DNA of 39,133 nt, from positions 1-39,133 of the IMG/VR virus record IMGVR_UViG_3300034073_001791; one strand, 5' to 3'. A model generated the notes under the pieces. The model did no database searches. It was not told the DNA's origin and worked only from the letters and a program-made list of their open reading frames with translations. The position numbers were made by a program, and so were the translations under genes. This stretch comes from a virus. Shown piece by piece: positions 2,460 through 32,370 of the stretch (position 1 is its first letter; every line of letters begins with the position of its first letter).

Positions 2460-3004
2460 TATTTTTTCGGGTTACAAATTTCTGATTCCTCAATTTTGCT
2501 GATAAATTTAGATTCAACTATGTCAGTTATTTTTTCAACCAAGGAAAAAATATAGGGCTTTTTTCCGAACCTCTTTTCAATATTTTCACCGATCGAAATA
2601 TATTCCCGAAGTACTAAAATTGTAAAAATAAAATTTCGTATGAAATTGATAGTATGCAATCCTTGTTCAGCTACCCAGGAATCAGACTGCCCGATACTTT
2701 TGTAAATTTCAAAAATCAGCCAAAAAAAGAAAAAGTACATTAACACTTTATAAAAAGTAAAAGCTATTTTGGCCGATTGTATTTTTTCGCCTAAATGCTT
2801 GCTGGCAATTACACCTGTGACAAAATCAAAAAAAATAAAAATCACAAAAAGTATGGTGAAGGTCAAATTGATTCCAAGGAATGAACCGTTATAAATACCC
2901 TCTAAAAAAATCGAAAAAGGAACGGTCATTAAGGCCAAGGATCCTTTTTTATACGTAAATGCGGAAATAATGGAAGTTTTCAATAAAGCTCGAATTGGAT
3001 TCAT
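2459..3004 (-). CDS. Phage holin family protein, 181 aa
   Basis: An inner-membrane protein with about three to four hydrophobic segments: LALMTVPFSIFLEGIY, FTILFVIFIFFDFVTGVI, VLMYFFFFWLIFEIY and FIRNFIFTILVLREYISIG. The FFDFVTGVIASKHLGEKIQS region resembles the conserved core of the toxin-secretion/phage-lysis holin family (Pfam Phage_holin_4_1), and the N-terminal length and charged tail also agree. It lies immediately before the lysozyme, so it most likely forms the lesion that releases the endolysin and sets lysis timing. Confidence 0.8.
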   Translation of the reverse strand: MNPIRALLKTSIISAFTYKKGSLALMTVPFSIFLEGIYNGSFLGINLTFTILFVIFIFFDFVTGVIASKHLGEKIQSAKIAFTFYKVLMYFFFFWLIFEIYKSIGQSDSWVAEQGLHTINFIRNFIFTILVLREYISIGENIEKRFGKKPYIFSLVEKITDIVESKFISKIEESEICNPKK

Positions 3005-3345
3005 TTTTTCTTTATCCAGTAAATTATTGCAAAGACTAAACCTGTAATTATAATCACACCGCTATACATAATTAAATAGTTGAAATTGAATACGTAATGA
3101 ATGATATTGAGAATATTTAACAGTCCCAAAGAAATGATAGAAACCCAGGAATAGAGGCAATATTTATGAATGTAGGCGTAAAAGGCCATAAAAACGACAA
3201 AGGCAAGACTGTGCGATGTTATCTCCAGTACCCACCAGTTTTCAAATGACCAAATATCAAAATAGCTCAATACCCACCAGACAAAATCAAGTGACAGAAG
3301 AATAAATGGAATATCTTTTACCCCTGTTTTTAAAACTCTAAGCAT
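3001..3345 (-). CDS. Small membrane protein of the lysis region, 114 aa
   Basis: Three to four transmembrane helices are evident (IPFILLSLDFVWWVLSYF, LAFVVFMAFYAYI, VSIISLGLLNILNIIHYVF, IMYSGVIIITGLVFAIIYWI), ending IKKK. The start chosen is the ATG at 3345 (MLRVLKTG), because the 16 codons upstream are hydrophilic and overlap the upstream small gene, whose TAG overlaps this ATG. It may be a second holin, an antiholin or a pinholin-like protein. No family was recognised. Confidence 0.7.
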   Translation of the reverse strand: MLRVLKTGVKDIPFILLSLDFVWWVLSYFDIWSFENWWVLEITSHSLAFVVFMAFYAYIHKYCLYSWVSIISLGLLNILNIIHYVFNFNYLIMYSGVIIITGLVFAIIYWIKKK

Positions 3346-24757: not shown

Positions 24758-25109
24758 CCTCCCATTCTATCTTTGGTAAGATCGTCTTTCCGTTGGAAGT
24801 AACATCTTGATAGTTCATTTGCAAAGACCTGTGTTCATCAGGTGAAGCAATTAATTTGTAAAGAGCTAACTGCAAAGCTGGTGCATTGGATTTGTACCAC
24901 TTGGAACGGAGGGAAGTTTTTATCTCAATCCTGTTCTTTTCCAATGCTTCAAACATTCTTTTATATTCGTTCGAATCGTTCGGGAAATGATCGTAAAAAG
25001 CAGTTTTTCCGCATGGCAAAAAAACAATAATATCCTCAATGAAAAACAGTTTATGCTTTTCAATAGCTTCCAATGCTTTACTTAATAATTCTTCGGTCTT
25101 GTATGCCAT
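24735..25109 (-). CDS. Terminase small subunit-like protein, 124 aa
   Basis: It lies directly before terL and overlaps it. The protein is helical with a DNA-binding-like N-terminus (MAYKTEELLSKALEAIEKHK, FFIEDIIVFLPCGKTAFYDHF), and NRIEIKTSLRSKWYKSNAPA in the middle. This fits recognition of packaging sites by a terminase small subunit. The ATG at 25109 is preferred, since it overlaps the upstream stop as TGATG; the GTG one codon earlier is an alternative. Confidence 0.75.
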   Translation of the reverse strand: MAYKTEELLSKALEAIEKHKLFFIEDIIVFLPCGKTAFYDHFPNDSNEYKRMFEALEKNRIEIKTSLRSKWYKSNAPALQLALYKLIASPDEHRSLQMNYQDVTSNGKTILPKIEWEDGDTSEL

Positions 25110-25714
25110 CACTCAAATTCTGCTTTGCAATCTACACCATTTCTTTTAACTGAAATACTCGGATCAAGTTTAACCATTCGCCTAACTATCACATCGCAGT
25201 ATTTCGGGTCAAGTTCCATGCCGTAACATTTTCGATTTAGTTGATTGGAGGCAACAAAAATACTGCCTCCACCTGCAAAAAAATCTAAAATTATAAAACC
25301 AAAATTTGAATATCCTTCAATTATAGGGCTTAAAAAAGACATTGGTTTTTCATGCTTATGGTTTTCTGACCTCCTATATTCCCCCTTAATAACACTTCTA
25401 GTACCATTACCTTTATTGTATCTAACTTTGGGATTTCCATTTATTTCATGGCTAACCAAAACATGATCTAAAAAAATTTCATTACCTCCCTCTTGTGGAA
25501 TTGCTGTTCCGCTATGGTGAAAAATAAAAAAATTTTTTAAATAAAAAGGACTATTTTTCAATTGCCTAATAATTGCACGGTCATTATTGAAAATAAAAAT
25601 GTGGCAATTTTCAGAAAAAAGCAAAGCGTTAGTGTAATCAAAATCTATTTCATATGGCGGATCAGTAAACACCATCTCGGCCAGCTCTGGTTCCAAATAG
25701 ATTTCTACTGCCAT
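25109..25714 (-). CDS. DNA N4/N6-methyltransferase, short form, 201 aa
   Basis: Motif IV is at residue 17 (MVFTDPPYEIDFDY) and motif I is near residue 145 (IILDFFAGGGSIFVAS), followed by GMELDPKYCDVIVRRM: the beta-class order, modifying adenine-N6 or cytosine-N4. The family ending KLDPSISVKRNG is what one sees in phage ParB-methyltransferase fusions of about 400 aa. Here nothing precedes motif IV beyond 16 residues, so the ParB half and part of the N-terminus are gone. A ParB-like leader fragment lies at 26560-26613. It may still be active, as the SAM and catalytic motifs are intact. Confidence 0.85.
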   Translation of the reverse strand: MAVEIYLEPELAEMVFTDPPYEIDFDYTNALLFSENCHIFIFNNDRAIIRQLKNSPFYLKNFFIFHHSGTAIPQEGGNEIFLDHVLVSHEINGNPKVRYNKGNGTRSVIKGEYRRSENHKHEKPMSFLSPIIEGYSNFGFIILDFFAGGGSIFVASNQLNRKCYGMELDPKYCDVIVRRMVKLDPSISVKRNGVDCKAEFE

Positions 25715-29907: not shown

Positions 29908-30735
29908 TTATGACCATAAGGTCGGTTGAATTTTTTCTAATTTAGTCTTAGCAAATCCGAATTTCTTAATTTCCTCTTTTGCTAATTTTTCCTCTTTAAG
30001 CCATTCGTTGGCTTTTAAATTAAACTCTTTTTTGATCTCAAATCCATAACCTTTTCGATTCAATCTTTCCGCAGCGATCAATGTCGAACCGCTCCCAGCT
30101 ACGGGATCAATAACCACGTCACCCTCATCGGTAAATATTTCAATTAAGCTTTTAAGCAATTCAACAGGCTTTTGAGTCGGGTGAATTTTTTCTGATTCTG
30201 TATCTCTTGGCCAATCCATGCAGTTAAATATCATTTTTCCGTTGTTGCGAAACTTTGGAAGCCTATCCCTATATAAAATCAAACCGTATTCACAATTACC
30301 AACTACTTTCATATTTGCCTTTAAAACCTGAGCTGAAAAGTTTTTCCTAAAGACTAGATTTATGTAGTTGTTCAATCCATAACGTTTAGCCAGTTCAATC
30401 AAATACATTTGCTGATCAAATGCACAAAAAATAATCATACAAGGCGCCTCACTTTTTTGTCTTGAAATACCTTCTTCTTTTTTCTGCTTTGGCTCCGATT
30501 TTAGCATTGTTGAACAAAAGTGCATAAACTCCGCAGGTCTAAAATCTTCATCTGTGTCGAAAAAAGATTTTCCAGCCAATTCACTTTCTCCATTTGAATT
30601 GTCGCCGTCCTTGTACCATGCAGGGTTTGAGGCATAAGCATTATTCCCTAAGTTGTAGGGAATATCTGCAATAATAAGCTGCGCCTTTGGTATTGCGTAG
30701 CTTTTATAGTTCTGAAAATGATCTCTGTAAATCAT
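29908..30735 (-). CDS. DNA N4/N6-methyltransferase, 275 aa
   Basis: Motif IV is near the N-terminus (LIIADIPYNLGNNAYASNPA, a D-I-P-Y variant of DPPY), motif I is toward the C-terminus (DVVIDPVAGSGSTLIAAERL), and the typical HPTQKPVELLKSLIE lies between: beta-class order. It probably modifies adenine-N6 or cytosine-N4 and could protect phage DNA from restriction. The ATG overlaps the stop of a 28-codon frame (TTATGATT), which suggests coupling. Confidence 0.9.
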   Translation of the reverse strand: MIYRDHFQNYKSYAIPKAQLIIADIPYNLGNNAYASNPAWYKDGDNSNGESELAGKSFFDTDEDFRPAEFMHFCSTMLKSEPKQKKEEGISRQKSEAPCMIIFCAFDQQMYLIELAKRYGLNNYINLVFRKNFSAQVLKANMKVVGNCEYGLILYRDRLPKFRNNGKMIFNCMDWPRDTESEKIHPTQKPVELLKSLIEIFTDEGDVVIDPVAGSGSTLIAAERLNRKGYGFEIKKEFNLKANEWLKEEKLAKEEIKKFGFAKTKLEKIQPTLWS

Positions 30736-30818
30736 AAGTGTGTATTAATATCGGGTTTCATAAAGTCCATGCAGTCCATGCAGTCCATGTTAAATGATCG
30801 GGTTAGGTCGAATTTCAT
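30732..30818 (-). CDS. Short leader-like ORF with MDC repeats, 28 aa
   Basis: From ATG 30818 to TGA overlapping the methyltransferase ATG. Product: MKFDLTRSFNMDCMDCMDFM, then KPDINTHL. The MDC-MDC-MDF part comes from a 9-bp direct repeat (30764-30790). N-M-D-C-M-x-x-M-K resembles the start of many phage DNA methyltransferases (N-x-D-C-x-x-x-M-K), so it may be a leftover methyltransferase N-terminus, or a translated leader that couples to the next gene. Confidence 0.5.
   Translation of the reverse strand: MKFDLTRSFNMDCMDCMDFMKPDINTHL
30764..30790. repeat. 9-bp tandem repeat, three copies
   Basis: AGTCCATGC, AGTCCATGC, AGTCCATGT in direct tandem. It lies inside the 28-codon frame, giving MDC units. 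Confidence 0.85.
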
Positions 30819-30846: not shown

Positions 30847-31191
30847 TTATTCAAAAGGTAAAAGAGAAAATATTCCAATTGTCATAAATTCCTGACCTTT
30901 TTTTACAATGCACTTCCGGATGTTCATTTCAAAAACTTGCCTGTCATCAAATCCAAATTTTTTTTGGCAAATATCCAAAATCAACTTTACAGGATTGTCT
31001 AGGTCGGAGGCTACATTGGAAAAGCCAAAGAAAAACTCAATCCGAAGCATAGCTTTTTTATCAATGCTTTTTTTTGGCATTCTAATCAGTATTGACTTCT
31101 CATAATCTTTGTACGCTTGAGTTTTAAAACGCTTTCCCTTCCACGCCTCATTGACCGATAATGGCTTTTCATTGATCCGAAATTGAATCAT
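30847..31191 (-). CDS. RusA-like Holliday junction resolvase, 114 aa
   Basis: The RusA family pattern: N-terminal FRINEKPLSVNEAWKGKRFK, central acidic motif SDLDNPVKLILDICQKKFGF and FDDRQVFEM, giving the Asp residues that bind metal. It cleaves four-way DNA junctions formed in recombination-linked replication, matching the ERF protein and SSB. The start lies inside the 3' end of the C5 methyltransferase gene. Confidence 0.9.
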   Translation of the reverse strand: MIQFRINEKPLSVNEAWKGKRFKTQAYKDYEKSILIRMPKKSIDKKAMLRIEFFFGFSNVASDLDNPVKLILDICQKKFGFDDRQVFEMNIRKCIVKKGQEFMTIGIFSLLPFE

Positions 31192-32158
31192 TATATTTTT
31201 CTATTGCTTTAAATATTTGTAAAACGACCTGAGGAACTATTGCATTTCCTGAGGCTTTGATTGATTCGTTTCGCCACTTTGCTTCAGAAATGGCAGTAAG
31301 GTCCAATCTGTCGGAAAACCCATCATTTCGAGTGTAAATAGGGGAGACAGTTGGGAAGTCTTCCCAGGTTGATGGAATGCATCCGGCAAGGTGTTTTTTT
31401 CTGTCCTGCCTGATTGCTCTAATGCTTCGGTTGACCTCGCCCCTTTGTAATCCCTTGTTGCAGGTGTCGGAAGAAGACCATTCATTGCCAAATCCTTCAG
31501 CGGTGCGCTCCAGTTGTGTCCTTGATTGCTGATTATCCTGCCTGATGGAGTTATATCTCTGCGTGGATTCGTCATACAATCCATTGCTTGAGGTGTCGGA
31601 AGTAAATTCTTTTTGGCATAATTGCTCAAACCCCATTGGCTTGAATTGTCGCTTCTCCGATCTGAACAGTCGGGAGTAGCCAACAAACCATACTCTATCC
31701 CTTCTGTGTGCAGCGTTGACGGATACAGCTGGAAGTACATACGGTTGTACTTCGTACCCTTCAGCTTCCAAGTCAGTCTGCACCTCGTGGAATACCAATC
31801 CCCCATTCCAATTAACAAGGCCGAGAACGTTTTCACCCACGACCCATGTCGGTTGAATTTCCCGAATTGCTCTAAGCATTTCCGGCCAGAGGTGTCTATC
31901 ATCTTCTTTTCCAAGTCGATTTCCTGCTGCTGAGTACGGTTGGCAGGGGAATCCTCCTGTAAGTATGTCGATCTGTCCTCGATGAATAGTGAAGTCTGTT
32001 TTTTTGATGTCATGATAACTAATTGCTTTAGGCCAATAATACTTTAAAACTTTTTGTCCGAACTTGTTCCATTCGCAATGGAACAAATTCTCCCACCCCA
32101 TCCATTCGGCAGCTAAGTCAAAGCCACCTATACCTGAGAATAATGATCCGTGCCTCAT
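31169..32158 (-). CDS. C5 cytosine DNA methyltransferase, 329 aa
   Basis: Motif I GSLFSGIGGFDLAAEW, motif IV with the catalytic Cys in LTGGFPCQPYSAAG, motif VI ENV (VVGENVLGLV), motif VIII HRRDRVWFV, and at the end motif X ASGNAIVPQVVLQIFKA. The region between VIII and X is a low-similarity target recognition region (SDTSSNGLYDE...). The ATG at 32158 overlaps the HTH stop by ATGA and gives the family's typical N-terminus; the ATG at 32185 would add nine residues. The cytosine modified is not predictable. A second long frame lies inside this gene. Confidence 0.95.
   Translation of the reverse strand: MRHGSLFSGIGGFDLAAEWMGWENLFHCEWNKFGQKVLKYYWPKAISYHDIKKTDFTIHRGQIDILTGGFPCQPYSAAGNRLGKEDDRHLWPEMLRAIREIQPTWVVGENVLGLVNWNGGLVFHEVQTDLEAEGYEVQPYVLPAVSVNAAHRRDRVWFVGYSRLFRSEKRQFKPMGFEQLCQKEFTSDTSSNGLYDESTQRYNSIRQDNQQSRTQLERTAEGFGNEWSSSDTCNKGLQRGEVNRSIRAIRQDRKKHLAGCIPSTWEDFPTVSPIYTRNDGFSDRLDLTAISEAKWRNESIKASGNAIVPQVVLQIFKAIEKYNDSISDQ
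31237..32013 (-). CDS. Nested same-strand ORF inside the C5 methyltransferase, 258 codons
   Basis: An open frame of 258 codons in a second frame of the methyltransferase gene. It does not look like random translation. It has a WVKTFSALLIGMGDWYSTRC then RLTWKLKGTKYNRMYFQLYP block, three L(L)xTPxxxD repeats (GLLATPDCSDR, NLLPTPQAMDC, GLLPTPATRDY) and MMGFPTDWTLLP near the end. From memory, proteins of this pattern exist beside or fused to phage cytosine methyltransferases. Either both frames are translated, or the nested frame is a remnant of an alternative target-recognition domain. Its start is not fixed. Confidence 0.5.
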   Translation of the reverse strand: MTSKKQTSLFIEDRSTYLQEDSPANRTQQQEIDLEKKMIDTSGRKCLEQFGKFNRHGSWVKTFSALLIGMGDWYSTRCRLTWKLKGTKYNRMYFQLYPSTLHTEGIEYGLLATPDCSDRRSDNSSQWGLSNYAKKNLLPTPQAMDCMTNPRRDITPSGRIISNQGHNWSAPLKDLAMNGLLPTPATRDYKGARSTEALEQSGRTEKNTLPDAFHQPGKTSQLSPLFTLEMMGFPTDWTLLPFLKQSGETNQSKPQEMQ

Positions 32159-32370
32159 TTCTTCCTTGCATGAATAGGTATCCAATACTTTGCGAAGATG
32201 GTCTTTCCATCACTTGACGTAATCATGCTTGTTTCGATTTCTAAGCCTTCTTTTCTTAGCCTATTTATGACTGAAGATAGCCTGTACACCTGATACAGGT
32301 CAATAGCCTCCAACCCGGTCAAGGAATGACCTGACTTAAGATGCTTTCTGATTTCTGCGTGTTTGCTCAT
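32155..32370 (-). CDS. Helix-turn-helix domain protein, 71 aa
   Basis: A winged-HTH pattern: MSKHAEIRKHLKSGHSLTGL, EAIDLYQVYRLSSVINRLRK and EGLEIETSMI... (recognition helix then beta wing, KTIFAKYWIP). It resembles the small HTH proteins that often precede replication or methylation genes in phages. Coupled by ATGA to the cytosine methyltransferase, so it may be co-regulated with or control that gene. Confidence 0.75.
   Translation of the reverse strand: MSKHAEIRKHLKSGHSLTGLEAIDLYQVYRLSSVINRLRKEGLEIETSMITSSDGKTIFAKYWIPIHARKK

Follow-up and report, generated by a model that had tools for sequence, protein, structure and literature searches.

The stretch of DNA analysed here, hereafter the window, is a virus record of 39,133 bases in which two overlapping reading frames lie on the minus strand. 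The longer, main frame encodes 338 amino acids from the listed TTG at 32185, or 329 from an ATG at 32158; the ATG appears the likelier start, because it forms an ATGA overlap with the stop of the upstream gene. The main protein matches the Pfam family DNA_methylase (PF00145) over 324 of 324 positions at 4.6e-45 (154.9 bits against a curated cut-off of 22) and TIGR00675 at 2.4e-41 (142.5 bits against a curated cut-off of 100.65). Its translation contains, in order, the methyltransferase motifs FSGIGGF (I), PCQP (IV), ENV (VI), HRRDRVW (VIII) and GNAIVPQV (X). By these matches the main frame is a complete C5 cytosine methyltransferase, a short solitary enzyme of a tailed phage; cytosine methylation itself is inferred. 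Two more DNA-methyltransferase-like genes, with the motifs DIPYNLG and TDPPYEI, are located at 29908-30735 and 25109-25714 of the window, both on the minus strand, and the phage thus seems to carry three methyltransferases. The gap between two genes of this methyltransferase module contains tandem repeats of 'tgcagtcca' (30765-30793).

The second frame is in the +1 register relative to the methyltransferase and lies entirely within its ORF (Table 1), spanning PCQP, motifs VI and VIII and the recognition region before it stops inside motif X. The original prediction had described a long frame nested in a C5 methyltransferase that itself holds all of its motifs, and both parts of this description are confirmed. 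The 258-residue product matches PHROG_1008 at 2.5e-26 (93.9 bits, residues 18-238) and, on this match, is a member of that family, whose nested products are about 220-350 amino acids long and begin at their own ATG. No Pfam or NCBIfam match to the nested protein was found, even at E 10. PHROG_1008 is labelled 'DNA methyltransferase', a reading of the nested frame that was rejected, as the frame carries neither methyltransferase motifs nor a Pfam or NCBIfam domain match. Judged by its translation, the label is wrong for the nested protein and, we infer, probably derives from the overlapping gene.

Table 1 Features of the methyltransferase (main) frame and the frame nested within it, in coordinates of the window
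Feature	Position	Strand	Basis
C5 cytosine DNA methyltransferase, main frame	31169..32185	-	Pfam PF00145; PHROG_363 4.3e-69; TIGR00675
Methyltransferase motif IV, catalytic PCQP	31937..31948	-	Sequence
Methyltransferase motif VI, ENV	31826..31834	-	Sequence
Methyltransferase motif VIII, HRRDRVW	31688..31708	-	Sequence
Methyltransferase motif X, GNAIVPQV; nested frame ends within	31226..31249	-	Sequence
Nested protein, PHROG_1008 family, 258 aa, ATG start, +1 frame of the methyltransferase	31237..32013	-	PHROG_1008 match; purifying selection
Nested ATG start codon	32011..32013	-	0/41 third-base differences in the main codon supplying the ATG (61 common-motif pairs)
Predicted sliding-clamp binding motif, Q6-T-S-L-F10	31984..31998	-	Motif counts; frozen Q, L and F codons
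Variable linker, residues 11-42, weakly constrained	31888..31983	-	Divergence and pLDDT
Conserved core, residues 43-112, GRKCLEQ...WYSTRCRLTWKLKGTK...FQLYPS...GLL	31678..31887	-	Near-invariant residues
First L(P/A)TP block, LLATP	31672..31686	-	Translation
Second block, LLPTPQAMD, on DNA that also encodes SDTSSNGL in the variable region of the methyltransferase	31591..31605	-	Sequence
Third block, LLPTPATRDYKG	31462..31476	-	P182, T183 and P184 near-invariant
C-terminal signature, GKTSQLSPLFTLEMMGFPTDWT	31300..31365	-	Near-invariant; main third-position divergence 0.02-0.06

In the nested protein a short N-terminal segment leads into a linker, in which the third-position divergence of the main frame is 0.28-0.29 over most of the stretch and pLDDT is below 50. 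The core that follows has near-invariant residues at G43, C46, W73, S75, L80, W82, R91, L96 and G109 and is predicted to form two helices and a beta hairpin, with pLDDT of about 80 for these parts in the model of one homologue (L016). The motifs quoted for this protein in the original prediction are present, with the correction that the first of its three LLPTP blocks reads LLATPDCSD. The L-x-P...MGFPxxW core of the C-terminal signature is also found in proteobacterial phages. Two AlphaFold runs yielded only low-confidence models (pLDDT 59 and 63), Foldseek returned no match in the PDB and only a family member among viral models, and an HMM search of the PDB returned nothing; no solved relative is known. 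Among the nested homologues there is no conserved set of acidic, His or Lys residues hinting at an enzyme. A convincing Shine-Dalgarno sequence before the nested ATG was not found in the AT-rich phage of the window; Paenibacillus phages have GGGAGG 12 nt upstream of the nested ATG, a long spacing.

The openness of the nested frame was compared with that expected under synonymous-codon permutation of the methyltransferase. For the window gene 7.3 nested stops are expected and none is present, with 0 of 300 permutations equally open, while the +2 frame contains 20 stops against 18.9 expected in the same permutation. Across 39 non-redundant genes a mean of 7.5 stops is expected in the nested span and 0 observed, and 37 of the 39 outdo all 300 permutations; the +2 frame of the permuted genes has 21.7 stops against 21.2 expected, as chance predicts. 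Relatives gathered mostly via the nested protein have the frame in the same +1 register in 90 of 90 cases. This set is biased by its mode of collection, and a second set was therefore picked by the methyltransferase protein only: all 80 of these viral relatives contain a +1 frame of 174-345 aa, with the longest +2 run mostly 25-60 aa. As controls served 12 distinct R-M-like chromosomal C5 methyltransferase frames of Bacteroidia, recovered by a motif filter, in which the longest +1 run is 31-104 aa, no more than in shuffled sequences, and the MGFP signature is absent. A chance open frame is ruled out by the permutations together with the chromosomal controls, and ascertainment bias from the nested-protein search is removed by selection on the main protein.

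Substitution patterns were examined in a codon-position test with 71 gene pairs, in which every gene was used once. The third-position divergence of the main frame is 0.27 before the overlap and 0.30 after it, compared to 0.17 and 0.14 within. From the recognition region to motif IX (TRD-IX), change is fastest at main position 1, the third position of the nested codons (0.191 against 0.142 and 0.091), and transitions that are synonymous in the nested and nonsynonymous in the main frame (0.091) exceed those that are synonymous in the main frame and alter the nested protein (0.048). In the recognition region, the nested protein is better conserved than the methyltransferase. Among isolated substitutions, main-synonymous changes creating a nested stop occurred at 11 of 1375 opportunities in the overlap compared to 71 of 394 in the flanks. 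The deepest constraint along the gene falls on the nested C-terminal signature, and main third-position divergence is back to 0.31-0.42 around or just beyond the nested stop. Purifying selection thus acts on the proteins of both frames. A real nested frame with a spurious main frame was likewise rejected, both frames being constrained and all methyltransferase motifs lying in the main one. The original prediction had held that both frames look like real protein, to be refuted by nested stops in close relatives or by free variation at main-frame synonymous sites. The permutation, codon-position and substitution tests support dual coding, and neither refuting observation is made: no stop breaks the frame in the relatives, 80 of 80 of which keep it, and third-position divergence is halved inside the overlap. 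That the methyltransferase gene is dual-coding is near-certain; translation of the nested frame is inferred, without ribosome or peptide data.

The nested family overlaps a methyltransferase in all loci examined, comprising 80 viral contigs and 80 bacterial contigs, the latter probably prophages. A standalone nested gene was not found in bacterial contigs of 84,980 species, of which the best 80 loci all overlap a methyltransferase in the +1 register; a plasmid search gave five nested-family matches, for which the overlap was not checked one by one. The arrangement is found in Paenibacillus, Lactobacillus and Bacteroides phages and, more distantly, in phages of Klebsiella, Salmonella (epsilon15), Edwardsiella, Xanthomonas, Rhodobacter, Acinetobacter, Synechococcus and Escherichia (N15 gene 58, K1G, Bas72 and a Krischvirus), in all cases as +1. 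The distant groups have 0 nested stops compared to 2.6-8 expected under synonymous permutation, and most share an L-x-P...(M/L)MG(F/Y/W)PxxW C-terminal signature. The evidence in these groups is frame openness, as substitution patterns were not studied in depth.

Several individual loci deserve mention. Many cultured Bacteroidota have members of the nested family on chromosomal contigs (L174, L178, L182 and others), probably in prophages. In Klebsiella virus KpV2811 (L257) the gene at 2722-3258, three genes downstream of a dual-coding methyltransferase, is annotated as the beta subunit of DNA polymerase III, the sliding clamp. Marine phage KM23-C739 (L005) has a split methyltransferase (1291-1533 and 1540-2127) with motif I in the nested frame and the remainder in the main frame, which suggests a frameshift mutation or a sequencing error. 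Six Bacteroides contigs (L217, L218, L229, L231, L232 and L239) contain TGA codons in the methyltransferase frame, mostly at conserved tryptophan positions (AAE*MGW, SR*RQAS), and have the nested frame open over 303-353 aa; either the enzyme has decayed and the nested gene has been retained, or TGA is read as Trp.

At residues 6-10 of the nested protein of the window, QTSLF fits the bacterial sliding-clamp motif consensus QL(S/D)LF (PMC9690074). In the Bacteroidota/Firmicutes branch, QxxLF or QxxLxF is present in 89 of 95 non-redundant loci compared to 6.0 expected under synonymous recoding, and the combination of an ATG at most 15 codons upstream, the motif and an open frame after it is present in 88 of 95 compared to 0.63 expected, although related loci are not independent. 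The main codons supplying the ATG, Q, L and F show third-base differences of 0.00, 0.05, 0.06 and 0.02, with most neighbouring codons outside the motif and the acidic tail varying at 0.2-0.5. The main placements of the peptide, 17, 11 or 9 codons before PCQ, are encoded by the unlike methyltransferase residues TDFTI, ANKID and SIDIV/TIDLI, which indicates that the predicted clamp peptide has been kept through relocation. In the models the motif lies in the low-confidence, unstructured N-terminus, and by a motif of this kind in an exposed terminus the nested protein fits the pattern of bacterial clamp-binding proteins.

The motif is missing from the proteobacterial members, which keep the frame and the C-terminal signature; clamp docking therefore cannot be the whole function of the family, whose primary role may be a more basic one within a methyltransferase complex. 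Bacteroides relatives have lost the peptide from the nested protein, and their methyltransferase often carries QSTLF, QPSLF, QTSLF or QASLF in a segment inserted behind motif VI. Of nine main-frame QxxLF-type matches, eight are in loci without the nested motif (Fisher 2.6e-6, inflated by kinship); the main-frame match QRGLVF of L183 is outside the methyltransferase insertion. These comparisons demonstrate an exchange of the predicted motif between the nested protein and the methyltransferase in one clade, on which the case for exchange mainly rests. The two proteins would be functionally linked, because QxxLF sits in the methyltransferase where the nested copy is missing.

Like the original prediction, which raised a partner role, we favour a partner of the methyltransferase, and we propose for the nested protein a non-enzymatic function that in this branch consists in tethering the enzyme to the replication clamp; both the interaction and DnaN binding are inferred, and we regard the proposal as evenly balanced between right and wrong. 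In the Bacteroidota/Firmicutes branch the clamp peptide, QTSLF in the window, would be presented on a flexible linker followed by the conserved core. By docking on the DnaN ring of the host, for which there are no binding data, the nested protein would recruit the methyltransferase to phage DNA that has just been replicated, or keep it there, whereupon progeny genomes would be methylated ahead of cutting by host restriction enzymes. In the Bacteroides sub-branch, the peptide would have been lost from the nested protein and often gained by the methyltransferase. Translation and the benefit against restriction are inferred as well, and the antirestriction role originally suggested remains open, in the broad sense only of a phage methyltransferase protecting DNA. 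A wider picture, in which we place somewhat less than even confidence, is that of a widespread and probably ancient overprinted pair: the +1 protein would be obligatory in a lineage of C5 methyltransferases of Bacteroidota, Firmicutes, Cyanobacteria and Proteobacteria phages, the two products would form one complex, and a clamp tether, its peptide movable between the proteins, would operate in one large branch.

The same motif near the N-terminus, carried on a linker, could also belong to a protein that acts independently of the methyltransferase, binding the host clamp to block or redirect replication and sharing DNA with the enzyme only for compactness. The toxin SocB blocks DnaN via such a motif (PMC9690074). 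However, the clamp motif can reside in the methyltransferase instead, the nested protein is not found without an overlapping methyltransferase in the loci examined, and many loci are on bacterial chromosomes, probably as prophages, a setting in which constitutive blocking of the clamp would carry a cost; we consider this explanation unlikely. Similar weight, and no more, is given to a non-enzymatic chaperone, specificity or assembly subunit to which the clamp motif was a later addition in one branch. In favour of such a subunit, most of the proteobacterial and cyanobacterial phages that share the frame and the C-terminal signature lack the motif, and the variable region of the nested protein is encoded by the same DNA as the target recognition region, so that both necessarily change together. 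Yet there is no evidence here of an interaction, and C5 methyltransferases normally act as monomers without needing a partner.

A nuclease, for instance a restriction endonuclease inside its own methyltransferase, might be suspected from the company of the enzyme and from the Holliday-junction or HNH nucleases that are often nearby in phage loci, but the nested protein has no catalytic-looking conserved residues and no nuclease family match in Pfam, NCBIfam or PADLOC, which leaves this reading very improbable. Finally, the nested frame might be untranslated, its conservation reflecting the main protein alone or a DNA or RNA constraint such as signals or recombination repeats for recognition domains, and the L(P/A)TP blocks do coincide with repeated short DNA (D2, 84% over 25 nt). 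DNA-level repeats or signals are rejected as the cause, because DNA conservation would not track codon phase, whereas the observed constraint follows the nested codons, whose third position is the fastest. The constraint is also sharply marked at the ATG and the clamp motif of the nested frame, relaxed in the linker and gone near the nested stop, and an untranslated frame is hardly tenable.

The original prediction considered the nested protein unrecognised, which holds for the most part, except that two GenBank records annotate the frame and PHROG_1008 holds the family under a mistaken label. In Paenibacillus phage Diva gp50 is recorded as 'g49 internal gene' and in coliphage K1G ORF30 as 'putative Mte8-like protein', both without function; as in the window, both are nested +1 inside a C5 methyltransferase. 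The term 'Mte8-like' is mentioned in passing in one paper (PMC5582158), and no description of the dual coding or of a function was found in the open-licence literature. In several public records (SCS92, FoX4 and Cy-LDV1; loci L256 1195-1857, L289 1192-1917 and L259 1672-2226) the nested frame is annotated as the enzyme under the label 'methyltransferase', and the real methyltransferase frame is missed. Dual coding explains this wrong-frame annotation as well as the mislabelling of PHROG_1008. Taken together, a widely annotated enzyme gene holds an unstudied second protein across a very wide range of phages, spanning hosts of several phyla and including laboratory coliphages, among them N15 and BASEL phage Bas72. 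Should the nested protein indeed be a partner of the enzyme, studies that expressed, deleted or recoded these methyltransferases have probably done the same to a second protein without knowing it.

Overprinting is in itself a known kind of gene arrangement; unusual here are the length, the breadth and the proposed mechanism. To our knowledge, tailed phages rarely have long overlaps with clear selection on both of the encoded proteins. Lambda Rz/Rz1 is comparable in that a tailed-phage gene is nested +1 in that of its partner and the products cooperate, but sequence and function are unrelated; furthermore, Rz1 is small, and other phages also have it un-nested, whereas the family of the window is found only nested. 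Hda and SocB likewise carry a short QxxLF-type motif near a terminus, although no homology to the nested protein was detected and clamp binding by the latter is inferred. The nearest functional likeness is with DNMT1, which is recruited by PCNA (PMC9690074): in both cases a C5 methyltransferase would reach new DNA through a clamp peptide, docking being inferred for the phage system. DNMT1 differs in being eukaryotic and in having the peptide within the enzyme, whereas here it usually resides in the overlapping protein. If the nested protein is a partner of the methyltransferase as proposed, phages would have evolved a clamp-coupled maintenance methylation parallel to that of DNMT1 and PCNA.
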